Source: Verrucomicrobiota bacterium
GTDB lineage: Bacteria > Verrucomicrobiota > Verrucomicrobiia > Opitutales > Opitutaceae
Reading direction: 5' to 3'
NCBI GenBank assembly: GCA_016871595.1
Contig: VHCY01000004.1
Span: 1 to 58,888 of the forward strand
DNA length: 58,888 nt
Numbering within the stretch: position 1 is the stretch's first letter; every line of letters starts with the position of its first letter. The notes below the pieces were generated by a model, which had not been told where the DNA came from, made no database searches, and was given only the letters and a program-made list of their open reading frames with translations. Both the position numbers and the translations under genes were made by a program. Below are positions 2,787 to 51,447 of this stretch, piece after piece.

Positions 2787-4292
2787 TTATTTCAAAAAGG
2801 CCTTGTAAGCCCAGATCGCGGTGCCGAGCAGCAGCAGGCCGAGCATCGGGAGGGCGAGCTTCATCACCGCCTCCTGGCTCAGGGCCTCGCCGGCTGAAGC
2901 CTGCTGCGGGCCCGCGCTGCGCGCCCGGATCCGGCCCTTCTTGAGGAAGCCGTCGTAGTGCCGCTGCAGGAGGAAGGTCTCGATCTGGCGCATCGTGTCG
3001 AGGATCACGCCCACCGTGATCAGCATCCCCGTGCCCCCGAAGAAATACGCGATGCGCGTCGGCACGTTCAGCTCGAAGAGCAGCACGTCCGGCATAATCG
3101 CGATCACGGTCAGGAAGATCGCGCCCGCCAGGGTCAGGCGCGTCATAATGTAGTCCAGGAACTGGGCCGTCGGCTCCCCCGGGCGCACACCTGGGACGTA
3201 GCCGCCGTACTTCTTCAGGTCGTCCGCGATCTGGATCGGCTTGAACATCACCGACACCCAGAAGTAGCTGAAGAACAGGATCAGGGTCGTGTAGAGCGCG
3301 TAGTAGGTCCAATGGCCGCGCAGCAGGTTCTGCGAGAACTCGGTGAGGAACTTCAGGTTGTAGGTCGCGCCGATCCACGAGAAGATCTGCTGCGGGAAGA
3401 GCAAAATGGCGCTGGCGAAGATGACGGGCATCACGCCCGAGTAGTTCACCTTGAGGGGCAGGAACGAGCTCTGGCCGCCCATCACCTTGTTGCCGACCAC
3501 GCGCTTCGCGTACTGCACCGGGATCTTCCGCTGGGCCTGCACCACAGCGATGATGCCCATCGTGACCACGATGAAGAGGGTCAGCATCACCACGGCCTGC
3601 GGGACGCCGAGGCTCGTGCCGGTGCCGACGGGCTTGAAGAAGAGGCTGTAGGTCTGCTGGGCGGCGCCGGGGATGTCCGCCAAAATGCCCACCGTAATCA
3701 GCAAAGAGACGCCATTACCGATGCCTCGCTGGGTGATCTGCTCACCCAACCACATCAGGAGCATCGTGCCCGCGGTCATAAAGATGACGGAGGTCAGGAT
3801 GAAGCTCCACTTGCTGATGATCACGATCGGCCCGTAGGTGGAGACGTCGTACCCGGGGAAGAGCTGGCCGGGGTTGTTCAGCGCCAGGATCAGCAGGGTG
3901 CCCTGGATGAGGCAGATGAGCACCGTCGCGTAGCGGGTGTACTGGGTCAGCTTCTGCCGGCCGACGTCACCCTCCTGCTGGAGGCGGCTGAGCGCCGGCA
4001 CCACCGCGGTCATCAGCTGGAAGATGATCGAGGCGCTGATGTACGGCATAATGCCCAGCGCGGCGATCGCGCCCTTGGTCAGGGCGCCGCCGGTGAACAT
4101 ATTGTACAACCCGATGAGGTTGCCCGCGCCCGTGGCCGCCTGCTCGGAGAAGAACTTCTGCAGCGGCGCCGGATCGATGCCCGGCAGCGGAATGATCGAG
4201 GCGACCCGCGAGACGAAGAGCAGCGAAAGGGTATAGAAGATGCGCGAGCGCAGCTCCGGAATCTTCAGGGAATTCGTAAAGGCGGAAAACAC
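2787..4292 (-). CDS. secY: Preprotein translocase subunit SecY (start estimated at GTG 4292)
   Basis: VFSAFTNSLKIPELRSRIFYTLSLLFVSRVASIIPLPGID...; GIGNGVSLLITVGI; QIETFLLQRHYDGFLKKGRIR. Confidence 0.95.
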   Translation of the reverse strand: MFSAFTNSLKIPELRSRIFYTLSLLFVSRVASIIPLPGIDPAPLQKFFSEQAATGAGNLIGLYNMFTGGALTKGAIAALGIMPYISASIIFQLMTAVVPALSRLQQEGDVGRQKLTQYTRYATVLICLIQGTLLILALNNPGQLFPGYDVSTYGPIVIISKWSFILTSVIFMTAGTMLLMWLGEQITQRGIGNGVSLLITVGILADIPGAAQQTYSLFFKPVGTGTSLGVPQAVVMLTLFIVVTMGIIAVVQAQRKIPVQYAKRVVGNKVMGGQSSFLPLKVNYSGVMPVIFASAILLFPQQIFSWIGATYNLKFLTEFSQNLLRGHWTYYALYTTLILFFSYFWVSVMFKPIQIADDLKKYGGYVPGVRPGEPTAQFLDYIMTRLTLAGAIFLTVIAIMPDVLLFELNVPTRIAYFFGGTGMLITVGVILDTMRQIETFLLQRHYDGFLKKGRIRARSAGPQQASAGEALSQEAVMKLALPMLGLLLLGTAIWAYKAFLK

Positions 4293-4918: not shown

Positions 4919-5575
4919 TCAGGCGGTCTGACGGACCTGGGCGACGTCCGCGGCGAGGCGGAGCTTCCGCAGGCCATCGAGGGTGGCGTGGACCACGGCG
5001 ATGTGGTTGGAGGAGCCCATCGACTTGGTGAGGATGTTCTTCACCCCCGCCGCCTCGAGGACCGCACGCACGCCGCCGCCGGCGATCAGGCCGGTGCCGG
5101 GCGAGGCCGGGCGCAGGAGCACCTTGCCGCCGTCGTACTGGCCGAACACATCGTGCGGGATCGTGTCGCCCTTGAGCTTCACGCTCACGAGGTGCTTGTG
5201 GGCGTTCGCGGTGCCCTTCTTGATGGCGTCCGGGACCTCGTTGGCCTTGCCGTAGCCGATGCCGACGCGGCCCTTGCCGTCGCCGACCACGGCGAGCGCC
5301 GCGAAGGAGAAGCGGCGACCGCCCTTCACGACCTTGGCGCAGCGGTTGATGAAGACGACCTTCTCGATCATCGAGGGACCCTCGCCCTCCTGGGGCTTGT
5401 CCCGCGAGTCACGGCGGCCGCCATCGCGGCGGGGACCGCGCCCGCCACCGGGTCCACGGAAGCCACCGCCACCCCCACGACCCTCGCGCGCGGGGCGCTC
5501 GGGCGCGGCAACCGGGGCAGCCGGGGCGGCCTCCACCGGGGTCACAACAGTCTCAAAAGAATTTTCGGTGCTCAT
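4919..5575 (-). CDS. rpsE: 30S ribosomal protein S5 with Gly/Arg-rich N-terminal extension
   Basis: [52 protein letters not shown]-term [29 protein letters not shown]. Confidence 0.95.
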
Positions 5576-17766: not shown

Positions 17767-18777
17767 ATGCGCGCCGGCTGGATGAAAATCCGCTCCGACC
17801 TCCCGGGCTCCCTCGGGCTCGCGCTGCTGCTTGCCGGCGGCTTTATGCTCTTTACCGCTTGGGACCAGTCCCACTGGTGGCGGGTGAAGCAGGACTACTC
17901 CTTCGGCTGGCTCGTACCGCTCTTGGTCGCGTTCGTGGTGCACGACCGATGGCCTCGCATCCGCGCAGCCGCCGCGGCCTGCGCCCAGCCGCACAGCCCC
18001 CGCGCCGCCGGGTGGCAGGGCTGGCTCCTCGCGACTTTAACCGGCTCCGCGCTGCTGCTGGGCGCGGCGTTTTTTCTCCTCGGCTCCTTCTATCGCGCCG
18101 GAGCTGGCACCTCCCAGCCCGGCACGCTCGCCATCACGCTGGGCATGGCCGGAATTACCGCAGCTCTGCTGGTGCTGAACGCCCCGCCGACCCCCTCCCC
18201 TACCCCGGCTGGTCTGACCACGGACGCTCGGCTCCGCCTCGCCAGCCTCTTTCTGTTCCCCGTGCTGATCTGGCTCGTCTCCGCCCCGATGGTCTCGGCC
18301 GTGGAGTCTAAGCTGAACCTAGTCCTCCTTCGGCGCGTGGTGGCCGTGGTGGCGTTCGTCTTCGACGCGCTCGGCCTGCCGATCGAGCAACGCGGCAACG
18401 TGCTCGCCCTCCCGCCGGTCAACGGCCAAGCCAACCTAGTCGGCGTGGAGGACGCATGCTCCGGCATTCGTTCCCTCACCGCCTGTCTTTTCGCCGGTTC
18501 GTTCCTCGCGGCGGTATTCGTGCAGCAGGCGTGGAAGAAGGTTGCACTCGTCGTCGCTGCCCTGCTGCTGGCGTTTGTGACGAACCTCGCCCGCAGCTTA
18601 TTCCTCACCGCTTGGGCCTACCGCCATGGCCACGCCGCGATCGAGGGCACGGTCCACGATCTGGCGGGCTACGCAGTCCTTGGCGGCACCGTTCTCGGCC
18701 TGCTCGGGCTCCTCCCGCTGCTTAACCTCCGGCTGCTACCCGCGGGACGCCCGCCCCCGGCCGCCCCGAGCCCGTGA
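17767..18777 (+). CDS. Exosortase/archaeosortase family transpeptidase
   Basis: Multi-TM; catalytic signatures VEDACSGIRSLTACLFAG (Cys), VTNLARSLFLTAWAYRHG (Arg), GTVHDLAGYAVLG (His). Confidence 0.88.
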   Translation: MRAGWMKIRSDLPGSLGLALLLAGGFMLFTAWDQSHWWRVKQDYSFGWLVPLLVAFVVHDRWPRIRAAAAACAQPHSPRAAGWQGWLLATLTGSALLLGAAFFLLGSFYRAGAGTSQPGTLAITLGMAGITAALLVLNAPPTPSPTPAGLTTDARLRLASLFLFPVLIWLVSAPMVSAVESKLNLVLLRRVVAVVAFVFDALGLPIEQRGNVLALPPVNGQANLVGVEDACSGIRSLTACLFAGSFLAAVFVQQAWKKVALVVAALLLAFVTNLARSLFLTAWAYRHGHAAIEGTVHDLAGYAVLGGTVLGLLGLLPLLNLRLLPAGRPPPAAPSP

Positions 18778-47531: not shown

Positions 47532-48803
47532 TCAGGAGCTGAGGTCGCGGATACTGCCGAAGCGGGGGTCGAAGAGGCGTTGGTGGGTGCGGACGATCAT
47601 CCCGTCGGTAAGTCCGGCCAGCCAGTCGCAGATGCGGCGCGCCTTGCCGGCGTCGGTGGTCTCGGCGGCGAGGAGGCGGCCCACCTGCGGGGGCAGCAGG
47701 CGGATGACGCGGGCGCCGGGGGCGACGTAGTTTTCCCAGCAGGAGTGCCAAAGATCGAACAGGACGCGGCGGGCCTTGTGCTCCATCTGCTGGAGCTGCG
47801 GGCTCTCAAAGATGATGTCGTTGGCGAGGCGCTTGTAGAAGGCGGCCTCGCGCTGGACGGCCGGGGTGACGACCAGTTCAAAGGCGTAGCGGTGGGTCTG
47901 CGCCGAGAGGAAGGCCCGGCGTTCGCGCAGGCGGCAGGCGGTGATGCAGGCCCCGATGCGCTGGCTGAACACCCGTTCCAGCCGGTCGCCACGGACGGCG
48001 GCGAAGATCGCCTCGAGCCAGCGCTGCTCCTCGGCGCCAATGCCCGTCTCGGCGGCCCAGCGCTCCATCCGCTCGAGCGTGAGGAAGCCGGCACCGACCC
48101 CGTCGATGATGTCATTGATCGAATAGGCCACGTCATCGGCCCAGTCCATAATCTGGCATTCGACGCTTTTGAGGGCGTTGAGGGCGTCGCCGGCCTGCAG
48201 TTCGGGCGGGAGGCCCTGTCCGCCGAAGACCCAGTCGCGGTGGCGTTCCTGCGGGTCGTAGAGGAAGTGGCGCGGGGGTGGCGCGGGGAATTCGCGGAAG
48301 AGCTTCTTGTATTTGAGGACCCCGTCGAGGAGGGCGCGGGTGGGGGCCATCCCGCTGATGCCGCCCTCGCGCTGGTACATCGTCTCGGTGAGGAGGTGGA
48401 GCGTCTGGGCGTTGCCCTCGAAGCCGCCCCAGTCGGCCATCAGTTCCTGGAGCGTGCGTTCGCCGGAATGGCCGAAGGGCGGGTGCCCGAGGTCGTGGGC
48501 GAGGCAGCAGGCCTCGACGAGGTCGCTATCGATGCGGAAGTCGGGGGCGAGGGGTTCGCCGCGGGACTCGAGGAAGGTGCAGATCGAGCGGCCGATCTGG
48601 GCGACTTCCATCGAGTGGGTGAGGCGGGTGCGGTAGAAGTCGTATTCGCCGGAGAGGAAGACCTGGGTCTTGGACTGGAGCTTGCGGAAGGCGTGGGCGT
48701 GGATGATGCGGTCGCGTTCGCGCTGGAAGGGGGTGCGGTAGTCGTGCTGCGCGTCGCCGCCGAGCGTTTCGCGGTCGAAGGCGTTGTAGAAGCGGTTCTC
48801 CAT
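47532..48803 (-). CDS. dgt: dGTPase-like deoxynucleoside triphosphate triphosphohydrolase (HD domain)
   Basis: DYRTPFQRERDRIIHAHAFRKLQSKTQVFLSGEYDFYRTRLTHSMEVAQIGRSI...CCLAHDLGHPPFGHSGE...DWADDVAYSINDIIDG. Confidence 0.93.
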   Translation of the reverse strand: MENRFYNAFDRETLGGDAQHDYRTPFQRERDRIIHAHAFRKLQSKTQVFLSGEYDFYRTRLTHSMEVAQIGRSICTFLESRGEPLAPDFRIDSDLVEACCLAHDLGHPPFGHSGERTLQELMADWGGFEGNAQTLHLLTETMYQREGGISGMAPTRALLDGVLKYKKLFREFPAPPPRHFLYDPQERHRDWVFGGQGLPPELQAGDALNALKSVECQIMDWADDVAYSINDIIDGVGAGFLTLERMERWAAETGIGAEEQRWLEAIFAAVRGDRLERVFSQRIGACITACRLRERRAFLSAQTHRYAFELVVTPAVQREAAFYKRLANDIIFESPQLQQMEHKARRVLFDLWHSCWENYVAPGARVIRLLPPQVGRLLAAETTDAGKARRICDWLAGLTDGMIVRTHQRLFDPRFGSIRDLSS

Positions 48804-49276
48804 CGTCGTGGGGGTGAGCGCAGCGCCCCCGCCCGCCGAAGGGAAGAGCGAAACGCGGGGTGGGCCCTCCGTGCAGTCTGCCTCCAATGTCCCTCCAGTG
48901 CTGCTGCCTTCGACCGCGAGTCCCTCCCGGCGTGCCCTTGGAGGAGACTGGAGCCGGATTGCAGCCGTGAGCCCGCCGCGAAGGTAGCCGCAGCCAGGGT
49001 ACCGCTGCAGGGCCGAGGAACCCTGCGGAGTGTCAGGACATCGTATCCATCCGCCCTCCGTCATCCGCCCTCCGCCCTCCCCACTCCTCACTCCTTTCTG
49101 TAAAGTCCCCCCTCTCAAACGACGGTAGAATTTACACTTACGCCCCGGTCCGCCTAGCGCCGAAAACGTGCCGTATGTCGGAACTCGTTGATAATTGGCC
49201 CAAACAAGGCCCGACCGGGGTGGAATTACGCAGTTGGCCCTCCATTTACTACCACCCAGGCGAAAACTTACCACCA

Positions 49277-49432
49277 ATGAAAACTCGTCTCCTTCTCGCC
49301 GCCCTCGCCGCCCTCGCCACCACCGCCTCCGCGGCCGTTGGCGGGCCCGTGCCCGAAACCTCCAGCACCTTCCCGCTGCTGGCCGTGGGCGTGGTCGCGC
49401 TGGGCTTCCTAGCGCGCCGCCTGCGGAAGTAA
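49277..49432 (+). CDS. 51-aa mini-protein: signal peptide plus VPDSG-like exosortase sorting signal
   Basis: MKTRLLLAALAALATTASAAVGGPVPETSSTFPLLAVGVVALGFLARRLRK. Confidence 0.75.
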   Translation: MKTRLLLAALAALATTASAAVGGPVPETSSTFPLLAVGVVALGFLARRLRK

Positions 49433-49468
49433 GGCCTCGGACAGGCGCGGGACCATCCCGCTTCGTCC

Positions 49469-49490
49469 CGCGGGGCCTGAAGGCCCCGCG
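49469..49490. repeat. Perfect palindromic stem downstream of mini-protein 1
   Basis: CGCGGGGCCT-GA-AGGCCCCGCG. Confidence 0.6.
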
Positions 49491-49576
49491 TTGATGGATT
49501 TTGGTCTTCCCATTTGGGCGGGCCGCAGACGGACTGCGCGTGCACTCGCGCGGAAACCTTCTTCGTCCTGACCCTA

Positions 49577-49729
49577 ATGAAGACTCGCCTCGCCCTCGCC
49601 GCCCTCGCCGCGACCCTGCCGGTCGCCGCCACCCCGCCGGTCCACGTGCCGGAGTTGTCCAGCACCCTGCCGCTGCTGGCCGGCGGGCTGATTCTGCTGG
49701 GGGTCCTGGCGAGCCGGTTGAAGAAGTAA
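49577..49729 (+). CDS. 50-aa mini-protein, paralogue of the preceding one
   Basis: MKTRLALAALAATLPVAATPPVHVPELSSTLPLLAGGLILLGVLASRLKK. Confidence 0.75.
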   Translation: MKTRLALAALAATLPVAATPPVHVPELSSTLPLLAGGLILLGVLASRLKK

Positions 49730-49766
49730 GGAGGGCAGCGCCCTCCGAAGCCTTGGCGAAGGAGGG
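49730..49766. repeat. Overlapping alternative hairpins directly after mini-protein 2 stop codon
   Basis: GGAGGGC-AGC-GCCCTCC and CCCTCC-GAAGCCTTGGCGAA-GGAGGG. Confidence 0.5.
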
Positions 49767-49913
49767 ACGGCGCGGGCAACCCGCTCAGCGATTCAGGGTT
49801 TTGACCTTCGACCTCGCTCTGCGGGAATTGGTTTTTTACGCCCGGACCGGGGCGCCGCGTCCCAGCTACACGGAGCCGCGGTTCTTCCGACCGCGAAGTC
49901 GTGCCTTGTGGCT

Positions 49914-49941
49914 GGGGAAGGATTCCCCGGCTTCAAGCCGG
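49914..49941. repeat. Intergenic hairpin repeat (divergent member)
   Basis: GGGGAAGGATTCCCCGGCTTCAAGCCGG. Confidence 0.4.
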
Positions 49942-49988
49942 CCCTCCCTCCCTCCCGCCCGCCATCGCACCCTCTCTCCGGCACGCCC

Positions 49989-51140
49989 TCAACCACCGCC
50001 CGCGACGAGATTGCACCGCTCCTCCGGATCGCGCTCCAGGTCGAAATTCAGCCAGGGCCGCCCATCCGCTAGGAACACCTCCTTGCGCGTGCGCGAGCGC
50101 CGGCCCGACCACACGCGATCGCACTGCCACGGTAGCGCCACCACCGCGGGCATCGAGATCGCCACCGGAGCCCCCGTCGGCCGCGGACGCCGCCCCTCTG
50201 CCCACGCCTCGGTCCAGGCGCCCAACTCCACCAGCGACACCGGCTCGGGTTCGATTCCCCTCCCCTCCCCGCCGGGCCAGCGCACGATCAACGGCACCCG
50301 CACGCTCTCCTCATACGGCCAGCCTTTCCGGAAACAGCCCTGCGAACCCAGCATATCCCCGTGCACGGAGGTGAAGGCGACCACGGTGCGCGCCCCATCG
50401 AGCCGCGCCAGCAACCGGCCCAAGGCGCGGTCGGTCGCCTCCAGGTGGGCGTGGTAGCCCGCCAGTTCGGCCCGCGCCTGTGCCGCCGCGGCCGCGGGGA
50501 CGTTCGCCCGCAGGCGCAAGGACGCCGGGTCGCGCGGCGCCACGCCCGCGGCCGGGGCCGCATAGGGCGGGTGCGGGGGCTCGAGGCTCAGCACCCCGAA
50601 CCACGGGCCCGCCCGCGGGAGCCACGCCGCCATTCGGTCCACCAGGACGTCGCTCTGGTAGCCCGGAAACCGCCGCGGCTCCGGCACGCCCGTGCCGTGC
50701 AGCCACGGGTCGTTCAGCAGGAAGCCGCTCTCGAAGCCCTCCCAATGCTCGAAGCCGCCCCGCCGCTCCGGCGGCACCACGGTCCGCGCGTGGGCCTCCC
50801 CGACCAGCGGCGCCGCGCGGTCCCGCTCGCCCAAGTGCCACTTGCCGAAGAACGCGGTCGCATAACCCCGCCGCCGCATCCGATGGGCAATGGTCTCCCG
50901 GTCCGCCGGCAAGGCATCCCAATAGTCGCGCACGCCGTTGGCCGGCGATGGCACCCCCGTCAGCAACGCCGCGCGGGCGAAGGGACCGAACGGATGCGGC
51001 GTCACCGCGGCGGTGTGGACGACTCCTTCCGCCGCCAACCGATCCAAGTGGGGCGTCCGCGCGTCTGGATCACCGACGAAGCCGCCCGCCTGCGCGCGCC
51101 ACTGGGTGGTGACGATCCAGAGGATGTTCGGCGCCGGCAT
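49989..51140 (-). CDS. Sulfatase-fold protein lacking canonical catalytic residues (pseudo-sulfatase)
   Basis: MPAPNILWIVTTQWRAQAGGFVGDPDARTPHLDRLAAEGVV...GKWHLGE...; nucleophile region PHPFGPFARAALLTG; FTSVHGDMLGSQGCFRKGWPYEESVRVPLIVRWPG. Confidence 0.85.
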   Translation of the reverse strand: MPAPNILWIVTTQWRAQAGGFVGDPDARTPHLDRLAAEGVVHTAAVTPHPFGPFARAALLTGVPSPANGVRDYWDALPADRETIAHRMRRRGYATAFFGKWHLGERDRAAPLVGEAHARTVVPPERRGGFEHWEGFESGFLLNDPWLHGTGVPEPRRFPGYQSDVLVDRMAAWLPRAGPWFGVLSLEPPHPPYAAPAAGVAPRDPASLRLRANVPAAAAAQARAELAGYHAHLEATDRALGRLLARLDGARTVVAFTSVHGDMLGSQGCFRKGWPYEESVRVPLIVRWPGGEGRGIEPEPVSLVELGAWTEAWAEGRRPRPTGAPVAISMPAVVALPWQCDRVWSGRRSRTRKEVFLADGRPWLNFDLERDPEERCNLVAGGG

Positions 51141-51150
51141 CCCCGGAGCC

Positions 51151-51447
51151 TCACCCAACCCCGCGCACACGTCCACCGCATTGCGGCGGGGGCCGACGGG
51201 GAAGCTGCCCTTTCGAAACTCCGAAGTCATCCGCGATCCGTTTGCTCAAACGCGGGTCATCAAACCCGTCGCCGTAGCGGAAAGGCCGGCCAGCTAAACG
51301 ACCGCATCGGCGCGGACGGGCAGGCTTGCACGGGAGAAGGCAAGCCACCGGAAGCCCATAGCGCGTGATCACGATATGCTGACCTTTTTCGGCCGCAGCC
51401 ACCAGCCGCGAAAAGTGAGCTTGGGCCTCTGAAATGCTCACGCGCAT
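51151..51447 (-). CDS. Phd/YefM-family antitoxin-like protein, apparently orphan
   Basis: MRVSISEAQAHFSRLVAAAEKGQHIVITRYGLPVACLLPC...LSKRIADDFG; no adjacent toxin ORF. Confidence 0.7.
   Translation of the reverse strand: MRVSISEAQAHFSRLVAAAEKGQHIVITRYGLPVACLLPCKPARPRRCGRLAGRPFRYGDGFDDPRLSKRIADDFGVSKGQLPRRPPPQCGGRVRGVG

Follow-up and report, generated by a model that had tools for sequence, protein, structure and literature searches.

The window analyzed here, a stretch of 58,888 nucleotides corresponding to contig C4 of a 3.6-Mb MAG (444 contigs, 89.7% complete; hereafter G000), carries two tiny genes in tandem on its forward strand. The first, mini 1 (copy 1 or type 1; 49277..49432), encodes 51 aa, MKTRLLLAALAALATTASA-AVGGP-VPETSST-PLL...ARRLRK, and the second, mini 2 (copy 2 or type 2; 49577..49729), encodes 50 aa, MKTRLALAALAATLPVAA-TPPVH-VPELSST-PLL...ASRLKK; the two are paralogues with 67% identity. 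By inspection, their N-termini show a basic start, a hydrophobic core and an A-x-A-like site, and their C-termini are tripartite, with a motif, a transmembrane (TM) helix and a basic cluster at the extreme end. In mini 1 the Sec-like signal is followed by a spacer of 4-5 residues and then by the sorting tail; across the minis, the passenger between signal and tag amounts to about 4-9 residues, and there is no passenger domain. A preliminary description of this DNA had reported such a pair of paralogous ORFs, each with a motif/TM/basic C-terminus, and our analysis bears it out on both points; the consensus it gave, VPE-x-SST-[FL]-PLL, fits the window pair but is looser in relatives, [VA][PS]E-x-S[SN]T-[FL]-PLL. 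The syntenic flanks of the pair, both on the reverse strand, are an HD-domain dGTPase-like gene (47532..48803, 423 aa) and a sulfatase (49989..51230).

Two other ways of reading these frames were considered. An in-frame ATG at 49175 would give copy 1 a length of 85 aa, but the extension is absent from the related genomes G009 and G014; homology with copy 1 begins at MKTR in both, and translation probably starts there. An antisense ORF of 176 aa overlaps the two minis, yet the substitutions in copy 2 track the sense frame: the differences between G000 and G009 are distributed 5/1/14 by codon position (14 of 20 at third positions), giving an uncorrected ratio of 0.11 in the sense frame against 0.31 in one antisense frame and at least 1.1 in the remaining frames. 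A search of positions 48780-49990 against Rfam returned no match.

When 57 genomes were searched with copy 1 as a single-sequence query, orthologues were found in two Opitutaceae species of the same genus, three copies in G014 and two in G009, and the E-values of the matches (3e-14 in G014 and 1e-13 in G009) indicate that the conservation of copy 1 is not due to chance. The minis of G014 lie in the same place as those of the window, flanked by the HD/dGTPase-like gene on one side and by the sulfatase on the other. Those of G009 are located where a contig ends, next to the dGTPase-like gene; relatives retrieved via this gene are mostly MAGs named Opitutaceae, Opitutae or Verrucomicrobia. Copy 2 is 96% identical at the amino acid level between G000 and G009, with 16 synonymous and 4 nonsynonymous differences (dN/dS 0.08), and pairwise dN/dS for copy 1 among G000, G009 and G014 ranges from 0.13 to 0.28 (0.28 and 0.22 for mini 1 vs. 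its orthologues in G009 and G014, respectively). In the tail, differences are almost exclusively synonymous: 10 vs. 0 nonsynonymous for copy 1 between G009 and G014, and 12 vs. 1 for copy 2 between G000 and G009. Judged from these substitution patterns, the window pair is confirmed as real genes under strong purifying selection, which is strongest on the sorting tail. The preliminary description had itself raised the doubts that the ORFs might lack conservation in relatives or be truncated remnants of longer CTERM proteins; the first fails in view of the orthologues with dN/dS of 0.08-0.28, and the same values, together with conservation in several species, argue against the second.

The stretch of copy 1 running from the signal core to the motif differs in every species (LATTASAAVGGP, TACVSASPLVA and TASVFAVPVN), and the alignments thus point to selection that keeps the sorting tail of copy 1 and not its would-be passenger. 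This bears on the possibility that the minis are pheromone-like precursors, from which cuts by signal peptidase and exosortase would release or anchor about 4-9 residues as a signal or a cap. In many minis the predicted cuts do flank a short peptide rich in P and V, and the middle stretch of copy 2, TLPVAATPPVH, is unchanged between G000 and G009, in the one closest comparison. However, the spacers of copy 1 (AVGGP, SPLVA, VPVN) vary freely, both in length and in sequence, beside a nearly frozen tail, which disfavours a sequence-specific pheromone for this copy; moreover, spacers differ widely between mini families, and the genes adjoining the locus include no recognised receptor or maturation gene. 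We consider such a function unlikely.

The preliminary description had likened the tails to PEP-CTERM/VPDSG-CTERM signals, a comparison that holds for the layout but not for the curated cut-offs, which the window pair misses. Copy 1 scores 14.7 bits with TIGR02595 (cut-off 16), 13.6 with PF18205 (cut-off 25) and 8.4 with TIGR03778 (cut-off 22), and copy 2 has no match to any of these three models. The minis share with proteins of these families the short motif, the TM helix and the basic end, along with a predicted signal peptide, an exosortase in the same genome and a putative promoter of CTERM type, but differ from them in having a passenger of about 4-9 residues only and a motif, [VA][PS]E.S[SN]T, that is neither VPDSG nor PEP. 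The substrates of sortases with LPXTG have an analogous tripartite C-terminal signal, the enzyme and the cell envelope being unrelated. A tail profile (A3) applied to G000 retrieves mini 1 (E=5.9e-14) and mini 2 (E=9e-13), scores that are not independent because both tails are part of the profile; the next match genome-wide stands at only 0.24, with no further tail of VPD/VPE type. With the PEP-CTERM model, two more proteins of G000 are retrieved, both of full size (C90 and C172). Matches to TIGR03778 in the same genome were set aside as due to chance (13 of the 14 control genomes match too). A 76-aa frame with a sub-threshold PEP-CTERM match in G000, G009 and G014 was rejected because its translation shows no sorting signal.

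Upstream of mini 1 lies a conserved element, CAAACGACGGTAGAATTTACACTTA (49116..49140, forward strand), a candidate activator site that belongs to an inverted repeat, TGTAAA (49099-49104) ... TTTACA (49131-49136). G000, G009 and G014 have in common, upstream of copy 1, the sequence CAAACGACGGTAG..TTTACACTTA with the inverted TGTAAA 26 nt before TTTACA; one site of this element occurs in G000, one in G009 and two in G014, all at the mini locus, and none was found in G006. At 49234..49250 (forward strand), 43 nt before mini 1, there is a sigma-54-like -24/-12 site, TTGGCCCTCCATTTACT, in which the -12 is AC where GC is expected; G009 and G014 have GC. Such sites recur about 44 nt before the starts of a full-size gene of G014 (TTGGCACCCCGTTTGCT), of its mini_b (TTGGCACCACAACTGCT) and of the G009 mini (TTGGCCCTCCATTCGCT). 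The occurrence of a TTTACA motif with a sigma-54 site before PEP-CTERM genes has been described as limited to proteobacteria, with a spacing of 32-92 nt between the two (Haft et al. 2006, PMC1569441), and RpoN dependence has been demonstrated for pepA of Aquincola (PMC9850573). The mini locus resembles these promoters in having TTTACA upstream of -24/-12, and the site of G014 mini_b, TTGGCAC...CTGCT, is close to the mapped TGGCAC/CTGCTT of pepA (PMC9850573); it differs in belonging to Verrucomicrobiota and in the gap of 97 nt in the window, beyond the proteobacterial range, and its regulation by sigma-54 is putative. With a 13-position score of at least 9 including GG and GC, sigma-54-like sites are present, at loci across the family, before 22 of the 54 full-size CTERM genes and 5 of the 11 minis, against 21 of 628 control ORFs unmatched for base composition (Fisher p about 2e-15 and 3e-5, respectively, several rows being homologous and not independent). 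Of 26 such sites, 13 have TTTACA or TGTAAA upstream, vs. 15 of 460 controls, in a comparison with unmatched composition and sites picked after viewing. Before mini 2 there is a GGATTTTGGTCTTCCCATTTGGG-type element (49495..49518, forward strand), related sequence being present before the other minis of the locus; the element CTTCCCANTTGGG was rejected as a regulon marker, its genomic sites being too few and without pattern.

G014 has the upstream element at two sites, one before mini_b and one before a DUF4082-CTERM gene of full size (L080 4513-5148), which lies between the same flanking genes as the minis and encodes a protein of 211 aa with a VPDAG-type tail and a similar signal peptide. The arrangement looks like two units; in each, the promoter element is followed by a first gene, either a full-size CTERM gene or a type 1 mini, and by a type 2 mini. 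G000 and G009 would then have one unit of two minis each. Since the place held by the type 1 mini in the second unit is occupied in the other by the full-size gene, whose promoter element is the same and whose signal peptide is similar, the minis might be taken for vestiges of full-size CTERM genes after deletion of the passenger, or for spare sorting cassettes. An origin by deletion is possible, but present uselessness finds no support in orthologues that evolve with dN/dS of 0.08-0.28 in three species and are kept in two or three copies, and we deem this explanation very unlikely.

The exosortase that the preliminary description had placed at 17767-18777 is corroborated by its matches to PF09721 (E=4e-39) and TIGR04178 (58 bits, cut-off 23). 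The gene (17767..18777, forward strand) encodes 336 aa with all three catalytic motifs intact, Cys-x-Gly (CSG), Asn-x-x-Arg (NLAR) and His-x-x-x-Gly (HDLAG), and no other exosortase was found in the assembly. It resembles the EpsH/Xrt family (PF09721) in its Cys, Arg and His motifs, but falls below the cut-off of every named NCBIfam exosortase subfamily and lies outside any recognised EPS locus, adjoining fusA and kdtA; a search of the PDB by sequence gave no solved relative. Its dN/dS vs. the orthologues of G009, G014 and G019 is 0.06-0.07. Both G009 and G014 possess a second, divergent exosortase besides this orthologue, and G019 has an intact exosortase with no mini found in its 70% complete assembly.

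The closest relative compared, G007 (VHCI01000077.1; 95% complete), shows a dS of 0.217 at both kdtA and the exosortase. On its contig the dGTPase-like gene lies directly beside the sulfatase, the minis and the upstream element being absent. Its exosortase orthologue (L255 2977-3981) is still an open frame, but only 77% identical vs. 93-94% for the others, and its dN/dS with respect to the window gene is 0.57, against 0.06-0.07 among the others. The motifs have changed from NLAR to SRAH and from HDLAG to RDVAR, with loss of the catalytic Arg and His, and kdtA next door is constrained at the same dS of 0.217 (dN/dS 0.18). The G007 exosortase is evolving nearly without constraint, as a pseudogene in progress among intact neighbours. 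Furthermore, the G007 orthologue of the PEP-CTERM gene C90 is a decayed 3' piece, and neither CTERM profile retrieves a credible CTERM tail anywhere in this 95% complete genome. The whole exosortase/CTERM system thus appears to have been lost in G007, and the minis along with it; this joint loss is suggestive in tying the minis to the exosortase, but it is one event in one lineage, which may have shed the whole system for some other reason.

The joint loss also bears on whether the minis could be small hairpin proteins of the membrane whose role is unrelated and whose motif-TM-basic tail only resembles a sorting signal. As their two ends are basic and hydrophobic, an uncleaved hairpin is possible, and some minis of other genomes (G222, G226) have no good signal peptide. 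The loss of both minis and exosortase in G007 speaks against such proteins, as do the CTERM-type promoter common to the minis and a full-size substrate and the tail-specific constraint; we find this quite unlikely. From tail similarity, tail-specific selection, the CTERM-type promoter and the joint loss in G007, which together give good support to the exosortase link proposed in the preliminary description, we conclude that the minis are genuine members of the exosortase system reduced to signal plus tag. The roles which that description offered for them (decoy or regulator, pheromone-like peptide, small membrane peptide) are candidates only.

Passenger-less CTERM proteins are present in at least 8 of the 27 genomes of the genus, including G000, G009 and G014; the other cases are in G001 and G012 and, next to a DUF418-type gene, in G006, G008 and G023. 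In the wider family they occur in G155, G185, G222 (a tandem pair), G226, G265 and G266. The minis of G222 (L058/L074) and G226 (L075) show no clear signal peptide, and in both genomes they adjoin an apparent three-gene cluster for an ABC-2 type exporter. Constraint outside the window locus is uneven, with dN/dS of 0.10 for the G222 pair, 0.18 for G222/G226 (at saturated dS) and 0.44 for G265/G266; the DUF418-linked pair of G006 and G008, with 3 synonymous and 9 nonsynonymous differences (dS 0.07), is too close to show constraint. Other short frames (G225, several of G216, G020, G012:C354, G005, G006:C75) were dropped, either because they are parts of longer CTERM genes (fragments, or pieces at contig ends) or because they have no signal. 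The statement of the preliminary description that no passenger-less exosortase substrates have been described agrees with the open-licence literature, in which we found no description of them, but needs a reservation: the G006 mini reaches the cut-off of TIGR03778 (VPDSG_CTERM; 22.0 bits vs. 22), and automatic annotation therefore probably labels some such ORFs already.

CTERM proteins turn over fast, most having no homology beyond the tag (PMC1569441), and the minis could be the ordinary short extreme of this fast-evolving length distribution, normally processed and with no special role for their shortness. The recurrent tandem layout and the conserved neighbourhoods of separate mini families hint instead at selection for the short form, and we regard the ordinary-extreme explanation as rather doubtful. 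The best explanation of the whole, which we hold to be fairly probable, is that the minis are minimal 'stub' substrates that engage the exosortase rather than deliver cargo, a role preferred because what selection preserves in copy 1 is the tail, not the residues preceding it. Both minis would probably be co-transcribed from the CTERM-type sigma-54-like promoter and exported by Sec, with signal peptidase cutting near the A-x-A site; the remaining one-helix stub would expose its [VA]PE.SST motif on the outer side of the inner membrane, open to binding and cleavage by the exosortase. That the exosortase actually processes the minis seems to us likely. Their role would be that of a dummy or tuning substrate, or the occupation of the acceptor; this part we put forward tentatively, as somewhat short of probable, and we infer that a dummy or tuning substrate is to be favoured over a pheromone. 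More tentative still is the extension to a recurrent class of passenger-less stubs, acting as dummy substrates or membrane regulators of Opitutaceae exosortases under sigma-54-type co-regulation with the real substrates. Against stub substrates we counted the verdict of the curated signal models, the finding of G019 without a mini, the deviant -12 of the window and the long TTTACA spacing; in addition, the two full-size PEP-CTERM proteins of G000 could be the real substrates of its exosortase. If processed, the minis would be natural substrates of ~50 residues (roughly 30 once mature), handy for mass spectrometry and reconstitution of an enzyme whose chemistry and acceptor are poorly known, and for which G007 offers a natural control, enzyme and minis having been lost together. 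The promoter evidence suggests, besides, that the sigma-54-type CTERM regulon, described in 2006 for proteobacteria only, extends to Verrucomicrobiota.

Two further features of the intergenic sequence were observed. Between the minis, at window positions 49468-49490, lies a GC-rich hairpin, GCGGGGCC-TGAA-GGCCCCGC, with related hairpin sequence in G009; folding of the window sequence gives z=-2.6, and a terminator or attenuator is possible. Short GC-rich intergenic repeats of REP-like appearance, CCGGGC..GGCCCGGCTACA and GGGGCG..CCCAGCTACAC, are found at about 4230-4255, 5490-5520 and 5755-5795 of L080 and at about 49840-49880 of the window.
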